Shown: positions 28,038 to 38,746 of the stretch, piece after piece
Numbering within the stretch: position 1 is the first letter of the stretch
Layout: each line of letters opens with the position of its first letter
Assembly: GCA_021414245.1 (NCBI GenBank)
Contig: JAIOOU010000009.1
Span: forward strand, 1-63,079
DNA from: Chloroflexota bacterium
Lineage (GTDB): Bacteria > Chloroflexota > Anaerolineae > Anaerolineales > Villigracilaceae
Length of the DNA: 63,079 nt
Direction of reading: 5' to 3'
The notes under the pieces: model-generated
Seen by the model: the letters and a program-made list of their open reading frames with translations, nothing else
Told to the model about the DNA's origin: nothing
The model's database searches: none
Translations under genes and position numbers: made by a program

Positions 28038-29612
28038 TTATTTTATGAGTGTGCGGATCTGTTCGTGCATATATAGAGGCAGATAATAATGACCGCCTCC
28101 ATTCTTGCCGCTCGAGCCGGAGCCTTTCCAGCCGCCAAACGGTTGGAAGCCGGGCCAGGCGCCGGTGGTTGCGCCCTGGGGACGATTGGCATAAGTGACT
28201 CCCGCTTCGATCTTGTCGAAGAACCAGTCGGTTTCTTCTGGGGAGCCATAGAAGCCTGCAGTCAGGCCGTAGTTGACATCATTGGCGATGCGCATGGCTT
28301 CATCCATGTCCTTGATCTTGCCGATGGTGGTGATGGGCAGGAACATTTCATGTTTCCACAGGCGATGGCTGAAGGGCAGGTCGGTCACAAAGGTGTTCTC
28401 GCAGTAAAAGCCCTTGTCGAACATGCCGCCTGTCTTCACGTGTCCGCCGGTCAGGAACTTGCCGCCGCCCTGGCTGATCTCTTCGCAGAATTCCTTGAAC
28501 TCGTTATAGGAGGATTTGTTCACCACCGGACCGTTATACGTGTTACGTTCCGTCGGGTCGCCGAGGACCAGCTTGGATGCAGCGTCCTTCAAGCGGGCCA
28601 CCAGGTCATTGTATACTGCTTCATGCACGATCACGCGCGAAGCGGCGGAGCATTTCTGTCCCTGCAGCCCGAAGGCCGAGCGGATGATGCCGATGGAGGC
28701 CCGTTCCAGGTCTGCGTTCTTTGAAACGATCACAGGATTCTTTCCACCGAGCTCCAAAATGACCGGGCGCACGTAATTGCGTTTGCCGAAATCCTGGAAC
28801 ATCTTCATTCCGACATCAAAGGAACCGGTGAAGGTCGCGCCATCCACTTCCTTGCTGTCGACGAGCGCCTGACCTAGGGTCGAACCGGGACCGGTGACGA
28901 AGTTCAGCACGCCGTCGGGAAGGCCCGCATCGCGGAAACAGTCAATCAACAGGCGAACGATCCAGGCAGTGTCGGTGGCGGGTTTGACAACCACGGTGTT
29001 GCCTGCGACCAATGCCGCGCCCATCGGGCCGCCGGTCAGGGCGAATGGGAAATTGAAGGGGGAGACGACCAACCACACTCCGTACGGCCGGAGTATGGAC
29101 ACGTTCCGTGATTCATATCCCACAAGCGGATCCTTGCCCATTTCGACGACATAGCCGTCATTCTTTTCCATTTGGTAACACGAATAATAAATGAGGTCCG
29201 CGGTTTCCTGCACGTCGCCCAGGGACTCCATGCGGTTCTTTCCGACTTCCATGGCCATCGCCGCGCCGAGTTCAAAGATGCGCTTTTCGATTAAGGCGGC
29301 GCCTTTGCGGATCACTTCCACGCGTTTCTGCCAGGGTGTGTGACTCCAGCCTGGAAAAGCCTTGCGGGCCGCATCCAATGCCTGTTCGGCATGTTTGGCG
29401 TTGCCCTTTTGCATTTTTGCGAGCACCCAATCGGTGTTTACGGGGGAATGATCGTCGAATTTTTCATCGGCCATGACTTCCTTGCCGTTGATATACATTC
29501 CATATTCCTTGCCCATGTTCTTCCTGAGAGCTTCCACAGCCTTGTCAAATCCAACGTGCAATTCCTCGGGTGGATTGAACATGGTCGCGTAAGTGAGTTT
29601 GAAATCTGCCAT
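28038..29612 (-). CDS. rocA: L-glutamate gamma-semialdehyde (1-pyrroline-5-carboxylate) dehydrogenase
   Basis: A 524-residue aldehyde dehydrogenase of the RocA/PruA type, oxidising glutamate semialdehyde to glutamate with NAD in proline and arginine breakdown. FNFPFALTGGPMGAALVAGNTVVVKPA binds cofactor, LELGGKNPVIV contains the general-base Glu and GQKCSAASRV (about residue 320) the catalytic Cys. The start (MADFKLTYATMFNPP) and length of about 520 match monofunctional RocA. No proline dehydrogenase gene is in the window. A good promoter lies upstream at 29683-29711 and a terminator downstream. Confidence 0.9.
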   Translation of the reverse strand: MADFKLTYATMFNPPEELHVGFDKAVEALRKNMGKEYGMYINGKEVMADEKFDDHSPVNTDWVLAKMQKGNAKHAEQALDAARKAFPGWSHTPWQKRVEVIRKGAALIEKRIFELGAAMAMEVGKNRMESLGDVQETADLIYYSCYQMEKNDGYVVEMGKDPLVGYESRNVSILRPYGVWLVVSPFNFPFALTGGPMGAALVAGNTVVVKPATDTAWIVRLLIDCFRDAGLPDGVLNFVTGPGSTLGQALVDSKEVDGATFTGSFDVGMKMFQDFGKRNYVRPVILELGGKNPVIVSKNADLERASIGIIRSAFGLQGQKCSAASRVIVHEAVYNDLVARLKDAASKLVLGDPTERNTYNGPVVNKSSYNEFKEFCEEISQGGGKFLTGGHVKTGGMFDKGFYCENTFVTDLPFSHRLWKHEMFLPITTIGKIKDMDEAMRIANDVNYGLTAGFYGSPEETDWFFDKIEAGVTYANRPQGATTGAWPGFQPFGGWKGSGSSGKNGGGHYYLPLYMHEQIRTLIK

Positions 29613-29682
29613 CGTAATGCCTCCTGGTTAAGGTGTGTGTCGAACGGGGGTCCAGCCGGAAAAATGATCGGTTGACCAATGT

Positions 29683-29711
29683 AGTATAGCGTAGGATTTC
29701 ACAACCGTCAA
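29683..29711 (-). promoter_or_regulatory. Promoter of rocA
   Basis: On the minus strand TTGACG (29711-29706), a 17-base spacer and TATACT (29688-29683) form a near-consensus promoter about 70 bases upstream of the rocA ATG. Confidence 0.75.
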
Positions 29712-29827
29712 AGTAAAGCGGCTATATTTCAACATGACGTATTTCCTGCCTGGAATTTTGCGAAAATAGGTAAGAATCCGTCCAAACGGACTATCCTTGC
29801 ATTCAATATCTTTATAAGGAGGATCGA

Positions 29828-30346
29828 TTGAAACCCCGCTTCATTTTCTGGACCCTCAGCCTGGCTGCCGTCCTACTGCTTTCAGCCTGTGCCCCGGCGG
29901 CTCCCGCCACCCCGACCGCATCGGCCTTGTCCGTCAGCACCCTTACCTTGACCACACCGGAATTGACCGCGCCTGAATCAACCGTCGTCCCGCCGGTTCA
30001 ACCTGCAGCCACTTCCCGCGGGCCCAACCTTGAAGCCACGGACCCCTCCACGGTCAATCTGGCATCTGGTCACCTGCAACTGATTGAATTTTTTCGCTTT
30101 ACCTGAAGTACGTGCCGCGCAATGGCGCCCATGGTTCATGGGCTTGAAGCGGAATATTTTGGCAGGGTCGGGTTCGCCTTTCTGGATGCCGATGATCCGG
30201 CCACGGACACCTTTCAGCGTACACTTGGTTTCTATTACCAGCCCGAGCTATACCTTCTGGATGCAAACGGGAATCTCCTCGAGAAATTCATCGGTTACAC
30301 CACGGAGGACCAGCTCCGGAGTGCCTTCAATCAATACCTGCAGTGA
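29828..30346 (+). CDS. Candidate selenoprotein: thioredoxin-like lipoprotein with UxxC site
   Basis: Read through one in-frame TGA (codon 93, 30104-30106), this gives a 172-residue exported thioredoxin-like protein. It starts at TTG behind a strong AAGGAGGA site, with a signal peptide and lipobox LLSAC (Cys at about 21), then a Thr/Pro/Ala linker. HLQLIEFFRFT leads to the TGA, then STCRAMAPMVHGLE and a normal thioredoxin C-half (FAFLDADDPAT, YYQPELYLLDANG). The TGA sits exactly where the first Cys of CxxC belongs, giving U-S-T-C. A hairpin 20 bases later fits a SECIS. No frame change occurs. TGA is a normal stop in neighbours. Alternatives are a nonsense mutation or a one-base error from TGC or TGT. 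No sel genes are in the window. Confidence 0.72.
30104..30143 (+). promoter_or_regulatory. Candidate recoded TGA plus SECIS hairpin
   Basis: TGA at 30104-30106 is followed after 20 bases by a perfect 7-bp stem, GCCCATG (30127-30133) and CATGGGC (30137-30143), with apical loop GTT. The loop begins with G and starts 28 bases after the TGA, which fits the general rules for bacterial SECIS elements (small loop with an early G, about 16-37 bases from the UGA). The hairpin lies inside codons for RAMAPMVHG, so it must also be kept as protein sequence. Confidence 0.6.
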
Positions 30347-30351
30347 TCCGC

Positions 30352-30382
30352 CCTGCCCATCGAAAAATGGGCAGGTTTTTTT
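30352..30382 (+). terminator. Terminator of the thioredoxin-like gene
   Basis: A 9-bp stem CCTGCCCAT / ATGGGCAGG (30352-30360, 30367-30375) with loop CGAAAA is followed by seven T. It lies 6 bases past the second stop (30344-30346), not past the internal TGA, which supports the full-length reading. Confidence 0.9.
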
Positions 30383-30405
30383 ATGTCTCGTGATAGCCTT
30401 TCCCT

Positions 30406-30411
30406 TATAAT
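30406..30411 (+). promoter_or_regulatory. -10 box placing transcription start at the next ATG
   Basis: A perfect TATAAT lies 8 bases before the ATG at 30420, so transcription would begin at or within a base or two of the start codon, implying a leaderless message. No clear -35 box and no ribosome site are seen. Confidence 0.5.
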
Positions 30412-30419
30412 CAGCGCTG

Positions 30420-31514
30420 ATGGATATCCTGGTCAGAATTTCAATATTTCTTGTTGGTTTGGTTATGGTGGTGATGACGATCTTCTCCGCCTTGTCCACT
30501 TTTGTATTGACTCGTGCCGCGCGCAGCCAGTTGAATCGAGTGATCTTCGGGGTCATGCGCCGCGTCTTTGATTTTATTTTGCGATTTACCCGAACCTATG
30601 AACAGCGCGATGCGATCATGGCATATTATTCCCCGCTTAGTTTGATCATGCTCATCCCAACCTGGTATGCACTGATCCTGGCAGGCTATGGCGCCATGTA
30701 TTGGTCGCTTGGTGTGGGGGAATGGTTCGCGGATATTCGCTATAGCGGATCCTCCCTGCTGACCCTTGGCTTTGCCACTTCTGAAAACCCTTTTGTCACT
30801 GTACTTTCCTTTTCCGAGGCACTGCTTGGACTGCTTCTGGTGGCTCTGCTAATGGCTTACCTTCCGACCATGTACGCCGCATTTTCGCGGCGTGAACAGG
30901 CTGTCAGCCTGCTTGAAGTCCGCGCCGGAAATCCTCCCTCGGCCCTGGAGATGCTTCTCCGTTTCAATCGTATACACGGTCTGGAGAAGCTTAGCGATTA
31001 TTGGAAGACCTGGGAGATCTGGTTCGCCGATATCGAGGAAAGTCATACCACCCTGCCTGCCCTGGTGTTCTTTCGTTCGCCGCGTTCCGATAGTTCGTGG
31101 GTCACCGCTGCCGGCGCGATCCTGGACTCCGCCGCGCTCACCCTCGCTGCAGTCAACATTCCTTCAGATCCATCCGCCGCATTGAACATTCGGGCAGGGT
31201 ATCTAGCCCTGCGGCGCATTGCAGATTATTTTGACATTTCCAGTCCACAGAACCCAAGTTATCCCGCGGATCCGATCAGCGTCAAGCGTGAGGAATTTGA
31301 CGAACTGTTGCGAAAATTGCAGCAGGCAGGTGTGCCTGTAAAGTCAGATCGTGAAAAAGCCTGGCTGGATTATGCTGGCTGGCGGGTCAATTACGATCGT
31401 GTACTTCTGGTGCTGTGTACTCTCGTCATGGCGCCCGAAGCGCCATGGTCAAGCGACCGGGCACCGAAATTCAAGAACCCGCCCATATTCTTCAAAAAGA
31501 AAAAACATCATTAA
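30420..31514 (+). CDS. Multi-pass membrane protein with channel-like segment, unknown
   Basis: A 364-residue protein with N-terminal membrane helices (about 3-30, 73-92, 128-150) and a cytosolic C-terminal half (about 155-364). Between the second and third helix, SGSSLLTLGFATSENPF resembles the pore helix and filter region of potassium-channel-like proteins, with TLGF in place of TVGYGD. The C-half contains FADIEESHTTLPALVFFRSP and ends in a basic FKKKKHH tail. I do not recognise a named family; an ion-channel-like role is only a suggestion. The gene probably produces a leaderless mRNA and is followed by a bidirectional terminator. Confidence 0.7.
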   Translation: MDILVRISIFLVGLVMVVMTIFSALSTFVLTRAARSQLNRVIFGVMRRVFDFILRFTRTYEQRDAIMAYYSPLSLIMLIPTWYALILAGYGAMYWSLGVGEWFADIRYSGSSLLTLGFATSENPFVTVLSFSEALLGLLLVALLMAYLPTMYAAFSRREQAVSLLEVRAGNPPSALEMLLRFNRIHGLEKLSDYWKTWEIWFADIEESHTTLPALVFFRSPRSDSSWVTAAGAILDSAALTLAAVNIPSDPSAALNIRAGYLALRRIADYFDISSPQNPSYPADPISVKREEFDELLRKLQQAGVPVKSDREKAWLDYAGWRVNYDRVLLVLCTLVMAPEAPWSSDRAPKFKNPPIFFKKKKHH

Positions 31515-38317: not shown

Positions 38318-38746
38318 CTAAGATTGGGGTTGTTTGATCAGGCGGATGACCGCAAGAACAAACAGAAGGGTCATGGAAATTTGCGATGTAACACAGAACG
38401 GGCAGAGTGCTTTCAGCAGCACGAGCTCAACATAAACCAGCCAGACGGTAAAGAGAAAACCGAACAGGCCCATGCCAAAGATCATCAATGTGCCGTTGTC
38501 TCCAAAAAAGCGGTTGCGCGGTTCGAAGAACAATACGGCCAGGATGGCGCCATACCCAATCACACCGAACACAGCCACGGGGACGCCGTTCACTTCGGAA
38601 TACCTGCTGGCGTTGACAGTGTGACAATCGCCCGAGCCGACACACATTCTGTCGTCGGAGGTGAGTTTGTAAATCGTCATGTAAATTGAAACGAGCAGCC
38701 CCAGGATCGCCAGGGCGACCGACGCGCGATAAAACCACTTATCCAT
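38318..38746 (-). CDS. Vitamin K epoxide reductase (VKOR) family protein
   Basis: A 142-residue membrane protein with four or five helices. It has the VKOR cysteines: loop pair Cys35 and Cys41 (CVGSGDC), and the CPFC active site Cys115-Cys118, plus the NxSxYSEVNGVPVA segment. VKOR uses quinone to reoxidise a thioredoxin-like or DsbA-like partner, driving disulfide formation outside the membrane. Here there is no fused thioredoxin domain, so a separate partner is needed; extracytoplasmic thioredoxin-like proteins such as the lipoprotein at 29828 could serve, but this is only a guess. It follows moeA by 6 bases. Confidence 0.9.
   Translation of the reverse strand: MDKWFYRASVALAILGLLVSIYMTIYKLTSDDRMCVGSGDCHTVNASRYSEVNGVPVAVFGVIGYGAILAVLFFEPRNRFFGDNGTLMIFGMGLFGFLFTVWLVYVELVLLKALCPFCVTSQISMTLLFVLAVIRLIKQPQS

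Follow-up and report, generated by a model that had tools for sequence, protein, structure and literature searches.

The window, by which we mean the whole stretch of 63,079 nucleotides that was analysed, carries a complete gene at positions 29828–30346 of the forward strand, the strand of all the features of this gene given below. Read-through translation yields a product of 172 residues with a single internal TGA, at codon 93 (30104–30106), and a terminal TGA stop at 30344–30346; under the standard code the frame yields a product of 92 residues. The internal TGA stands at the first Cys position of a thioredoxin CxxC motif, giving the active site F-T-U-S-T-C-R, in which Cys96 is encoded by TGC (30113–30115). 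A Shine–Dalgarno sequence, AAGGAGG (29816–29822), lies 5 nt on the 5' side of the TTG start codon at 29828. On these points our translation agrees with the initial annotation, which had described two halves in one frame broken only by this TGA, the U-S-T-C arrangement and a ribosome site ahead of the upstream half. It had also placed a terminator only past the downstream stop. A terminator-like stem-loop is indeed found there by a simple scan (30352–30375; a 9 bp stem followed by seven T), but such sites are no commoner here than in shuffled sequences (one against 1.1), so that finding one carries no significance by itself. A scan of 29600–30450 for sigma-70-like promoters gave none on the strand of the gene.

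The N-terminal part of the product resembles that of a bacterial lipoprotein. Residues 1–20 (29828–29887) form a putative lipoprotein signal peptide, with a helix predicted for residues 7–20, and are followed in the sequence L-S-A-C by Cys21 (29888–29890), the predicted lipidation site, which is invariant in all 15 rows of our alignment. Among the 45 homologous proteins of the genus a lipobox-like motif is present in 43 with a relaxed pattern and in 35 with a stricter one; the two proteins outside the relaxed pattern lack the 5' part in frame. The combination of signal and lipobox Cys, recognized by pattern and not by a signal-peptide program, would place the protein among the bacterial lipoproteins, with lipidation as a prediction. 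A linker rich in Ala, Pro and Thr (residues 22–69; 29891–30034), for which the model confidence is mostly low, leads to a thioredoxin-fold domain (residues 70–172; 30035–30343). The domain is matched by Pfam PF00085 with 32.4 bits, above the gathering cut-off of 23.5. An AlphaFold2 model made with 25 rows has a mean pLDDT of 80.5, with block means of 90–98 from residue 71, and in a Foldseek search this model matched solved thioredoxins, the best hit, with an E value of 9.3e-09, being to a thioredoxin. The scores against the equivalogs of cytosolic TrxA fall short of their cut-offs (TIGR01068, 29.7 versus 96.8 bits; NF006898, 20.5 versus 138 bits).

A close homologue (E of 1.1e-54 or better) is present in 45 of the 57 genomes of the genus, that of the window included. 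Each of these 45 genes has exactly one internal stop, a TGA at the UxxC codon, and each has TGC for the Cys of UxxC; all 45 proteins match F-R-[FY]-T-U-x-x-C-R-x-M. Since the same TGA codon recurs in 45 genomes, a base-calling error at 30104–30106 is very unlikely. Downstream of the TGA the genes are under purifying selection, with a median pN/pS of 0.27 and a maximum of 0.51 over 826 equal-length pairs within the genus, calculated from raw proportions with pS at about 0.66. It had been argued that a random stop mutation would not favour this position; the sharing of the TGA throughout these genes and the selection downstream of it point to more than chance.

Homologues extend well beyond the genus. 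At an E value of 1e-8 a match is present in 96 of the 152 genomes of the family, and in the 68 of these in which the column was read (the 45 of the genus and 23 others) it holds TGA without exception. Matches were obtained at 1e-15 in 164 of the 400 genomes sampled from the order and at 1e-20 in 55 of the 396 sampled from the class. Outside the order, among the 40 matches listed, 36 have one internal TGA, one has two and three have none, a tally of internal stops per match and not a reading of the UxxC column. The 51 named relatives are drafts labelled Chloroflexi, Chloroflexota, Anaerolineales, Anaerolineae, Anaerolineaceae, Anaerolinea or Villigracilaceae, together with one Herpetosiphon and one Brevefilum.

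The remaining 12 genomes of the genus gave weak matches only, and no close homologue. All 12 keep SelB over its cut-off, and five of them (G008, G014, G036, G037 and G045) are at least 90% complete. The gene is therefore dispensable. Relatives with genes truncated at the TGA, which the initial annotation had named as evidence against its reading, were not seen in the similarity search, on which this statement about the 12 genomes rests and which could miss a lone low-complexity upstream half.

For comparison of the active-site column we assembled rows from the genus and from the order, the latter drawn from the 23 places without an internal stop among the matches listed, of which the order has more, and from 52 further loci. 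A 24th no-stop place, in G066, is one half of a gene that is interrupted by N, and was taken as locus L129. In the 118 rows with a [U/C]xxC motif the relatives proved to have either TGA or Cys at the same column: TGA in 98 (45 from the genus and 53 others) and Cys in 20. Left out of this count were L129, as a C-terminal piece, a second copy at L095 without the active site, and loci L079, L081 and L085. The last three are homologues without CxxC (W-S-G-P-S twice and W-D-G-A-C once) that keep the fold region, and their genomes have SelB over the cut-off.

Other candidate selenoproteins were met among these loci. Seven, from genomes of the same genus (L195, L196, L197, L200, L201, L202 and L203), encode a second thioredoxin-like protein that has L-E-F-Q-S-P-Y-U-x-x-C and a hydrophobic N terminus and is likely to be a selenoprotein. 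A further thioredoxin-like frame, with F-F-A-G-Y-U-R-D-C, occurs at L194 (G010), and at L092 there is a tandem pair of Sec-containing thioredoxin-like units.

Beyond the internal TGA of the gene in the window lies a putative SECIS hairpin of 7 bp (30127–30143), in which GCCCAUG (30127–30133) pairs with CAUGGGC (30137–30143) around a GUU loop (30134–30136). The stem begins 20 nt and the loop 27 nt from the TGA, in agreement with the perfect GTT-loop hairpin, 20 bases past the TGA and within SECIS spacing, that had been noted earlier. The bacterial SECIS model as given in PMC13188914 has a loop of 3–9 nt, a stem of 4–16 bp, a distance of 16–37 nt from the UGA and an MFE of at most -7.5 kcal/mol, with a G within the first two positions of the loop and usually a G or U next. 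Comparison with such a model had been proposed; made by hand, and not with a SECIS program, it places the hairpin inside the limits, at 3 nt (GUU), 7 bp, 27 nt and -18.3 kcal/mol over 57 nt. The folding energy of 30104–30160 is unremarkable (z of -0.98; 34 of 200 shuffles are at least as stable), and what the sequences offer in favour of the hairpin comes from comparison and not from energy.

At the fixed site all seven pairs form in 64 of the 98 Sec rows, six in 28 and five in 6. The mean of 6.59 pairs exceeds that of all 500 synonymous reshuffles (mean 4.42, maximum 4.82), whereas the 20 Cys rows, with a mean of 3.50, lie inside their reshuffle range (mean 3.00, maximum 3.60). Covariation was assessed on 43 of 97 Sec rows, picked by hand with up to four per hairpin variant. 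In this set 91.4% of cells pair, the covariation score is 0.293 and 23 cells are doubly changed, values that were each reached by none of 500 shuffles; two of the five measures are unexceptional, namely doubly changed pairs (as high in 96 of 500) and pair types (334 of 500). The innermost pair is broken in 20 of the 43 rows; in most of these a 5 nt loop, CGUGC, can form instead. The codons of the loop and 3' side specify Val-His-Gly in 92 and Val-His-Arg in 6 of the 98 Sec rows, and Val-His-Gly is found at the hairpin codons in 11 of the 20 Cys rows. In the genus, four genes have CCU paired with AGG, so that Gly becomes Arg, His-Arg replacing His-Gly, and the helix is retained. The recoding hairpin clearly illustrates how the structure of an RNA can limit the sequence of a protein.

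The genome from which the window derives (3.87 Mb, 98% complete) encodes the machinery for selenocysteine. The initial annotation had proposed a search for selA, selB, selC and selD, with absence of selB or selC to count against it; all four are present, so that such an absence is excluded. The scores are 549 bits for selA, 325.6 bits, over the cut-off, for selB, 350 bits for selD and 66.4 bits for the tRNA-Sec gene, selC, which has the anticodon TCA. The selD gene (L010, C6:242576–243508) has an in-frame TGA of its own, in U-A-S-K, and is likely to be a selenoprotein gene itself.

Sequence comparison establishes a single gene with an exchange of Sec and Cys, a conserved SECIS hairpin, the accompanying Sec machinery and a predicted thioredoxin fold. 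Taking the machinery, the TGA/Cys column and the hairpin together, the selenoprotein interpretation put forward initially is supported, and 29828–30346 is almost certainly one recoded gene for a thioredoxin-like selenoprotein.

The surroundings of the gene tell us little of its role. In 36 of the 51 named loci the gene is preceded by an aldehyde dehydrogenase gene on the opposite strand, and ffh is found in 31 of the 51, some loci being cut by contig ends. The order of the aldehyde dehydrogenase, an Atg22-like transporter and ffh is often kept; these genes suggest neither function nor substrate. Two candidate redox partners can be named, a CcdA/DsbD-domain protein, which is present, and a VKOR-family protein encoded in the window at 38318–38746 on the reverse strand, at a distance of 8 kb.

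We suggest the following mechanism. SelB carrying Sec-tRNA-Sec would bind the hairpin at 30127–30143, and the UGA at 30104–30106 would be decoded as selenocysteine. The protein would then be exported and anchored through Cys21, with a flexible linker holding the thioredoxin domain on the outer side of the cytoplasmic membrane. The selenol of Sec93 would there most likely attack a substrate disulfide or another oxidized form of sulfur, Cys96 would resolve the mixed selenenylsulfide and a membrane protein of the CcdA/DsbD type might re-reduce the selenoprotein. Selenium insertion, lipidation, the reducing direction, the electron donor and the substrate are all elements that we infer, and the reducing role is much less sure than the recoded gene itself.

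The protein might instead be a Dsb-type selenoprotein, an oxidase or isomerase supplied by VKOR, and not a reductase. The VKOR gene in the window is consistent with such a role, as is the fact that DsbA-like and DsbG-like UxxC selenoproteins are already catalogued. Against it, the sequence and the predicted fold are closest to thioredoxins, and a CcdA/DsbD-domain protein is present, although neither this protein nor the likeness to thioredoxin settles the direction. Thioredoxins are reducing. We regard the Dsb-like role as possible, if on the unlikely side, and prefer a reductase.

The recoding of the gene can be questioned on other grounds. Insertion of Sec in bacteria is often incomplete, and the sequence permits both products; the 92-residue lipoprotein might be the main product, with occasional read-through and the supply of selenium acting as a switch. 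The part upstream of the TGA holds the signal, the linker and one predicted strand, but no complete domain, so that the short form is more likely to be waste than a second functional product, and we consider regulated termination of this type very unlikely. The finding of Cys at the column in homologues raises the further thought that UGA is read here as Cys, by a UGA-reading tRNA charged with Cys, or as Trp in a changed code. TGA is, however, also the terminal stop in 6 of the 45 genes of the genus, that of the window among them, the Sec machinery is complete and the hairpin is typical of the TGA forms. In addition, SelB is over the cut-off in 25 of the 28 genomes outside the family in which the Sec form was read, the other three being 73, 76 and 78% complete. 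Decoding as an amino acid other than Sec is exceedingly improbable. Least credible of all, to the point of being virtually impossible, is a pseudogene or an error of sequencing or assembly in an ordinary CxxC thioredoxin-like lipoprotein, which would account for the short product of the standard code but not for a TGA at this codon shared by all 45 genes of the genus and by 53 rows outside it, for the purifying selection downstream or for a hairpin that is maintained in the Sec forms and, as a group, not in the Cys forms. Pseudogene, sequencing error and altered code were accordingly rejected, on the conserved TGA, the downstream selection, the hairpin and the Sec machinery.

We return to the selenoprotein and its Cys homologues. 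All 20 Cys rows come from outside the family of the window, and most have F-F-A-[FY]-W-C-x-x-C. SelB is over the cut-off in 10 of the 20 genomes with the Cys form; the 10 without all belong to family f9, in which 10 of 11 Cys genomes lack SelB over the cut-off. A Fisher comparison of SelB with the Cys or Sec form gives p = 0.011, which is not independent evidence, the 10 no-stop genomes without SelB being of one family; the 23 no-stop genomes compared include the three without CxxC, one of which, G260, contains in addition a match with a single TGA.

A tree of 81 rows was calculated with the Sec/Cys column masked, L129 omitted and the 45 rows of the genus thinned to nine. The labels require at least four changes, two of them imposed by branches with good support, and the main Cys groups fall among Sec rows; the tree has few columns, unsettled bootstrap values and a midpoint root. 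The Cys row L073 is placed among Sec rows and keeps six of the seven hairpin pairs, a pattern that would be expected of a recent replacement of Sec. Replacement of Sec by Cys in this family of homologues is, on the sequences, likely but not proven. We consider it probable, with distinctly less assurance than the recoding itself, that a lipid-anchored selenothioredoxin subfamily is spread through the class, that Sec is the older state in the order and has given way to Cys more than once, with one lineage also losing SelB, and that the SECIS element has pinned the protein sequence. If this is true, the subfamily would amount to a natural experiment on what leads an exposed redox enzyme to retain or give up its Sec. 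Given Sec and Cys homologues, and Cys lineages that have SelB as well as ones that lack it, the benefit of selenium to an extracytoplasmic thiol enzyme becomes testable. There is a practical consequence as well: the standard code shows a short truncated lipoprotein, and the whole redox enzyme has probably been missed in many genomes of a bacterial group whose members are mostly uncultured.

The use of Sec in this part of the bacterial tree has some precedent. Single-cell genomes of Anaerolineales were noted to use Sec, with a formate dehydrogenase and a Sec-specific translation factor (PMC4959059). No report of the present protein was found in the titles and opening lines of abstracts among the matches listed by searches of open full-text literature, and neither 'lipoprotein' nor 'Chloroflex' occurs in the main text of PMC13188914. 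The lipid-anchored subfamily appears to be undescribed in the literature searched; Haft and Tolstoy (2025) and the groundwater study of Deng et al. (2026) may list it.

No match to the window protein was obtained at E values up to 1 with PF13098, PF01323 or NF041057. Proteins of the TlpA and Dsb families have extracytoplasmic roles. Matches below the cut-off were given by PF08534 (15 versus 26.6 bits), PF13462 (14.4 versus 23.2 bits) and the DsbE model TIGR00385 (24 versus 123.15 bits), and a weak match to the TlpA model NF047696 (8.3e-4) was found in one of 15 members. The selenoproteins described by NF047660 (HUIPC), NF040730 (SaoT), NF045500 (GOS_C) and NF041383 (VPGUxxT) resemble the window protein in being thioredoxin-like or having UxxC, with one Sec; the NCBIfam selenoprotein models, these four included, gave no match to it at E ≤ 1 or to 15 members at E ≤ 0.01.

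A 2026 review lists 119 selenoprotein families and subfamilies, among them an experimentally verified UxxC thioredoxin of PF00085 (Table 1, PMC13188914). It also catalogues UxxC kinds of thiol–disulfide proteins, namely PF13098 (thiol:disulfide interchange protein), TlpA-like (cd02966), DsbG-like (NF041057), DsbA-like (PF01323) and Redoxin (PF08534) proteins, all of which share UxxC with the window protein. The thioredoxin-like UxxC selenoprotein is thus a known kind, and the broad PF00085 entry of that catalogue would cover the window protein; a lipid-anchored form was not found among the listed kinds. The initial annotation had called a lipid-anchored thioredoxin with Sec unusual; the word is a little strong for a UxxC thioredoxin-like selenoprotein, but the lipid anchor does stand out. 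Relative to the Sec-containing thioredoxin of the review, in which Sec likewise replaces the first Cys of CxxC, the window protein adds a lipoprotein signal and a long linker, and T stands in place of W before the active site in 64 of the 68 members of the window's family whose column was read. The Cys homologues of the same order (families f9, f14 and f5) have the same domain and the same column, but carry Cys for Sec, mostly in W-C-x-x-C, and as a group have no conserved hairpin. What sets the protein of the window apart from these known systems is the lack of a family model, its breadth within a bacterial class and its predicted lipid anchor.
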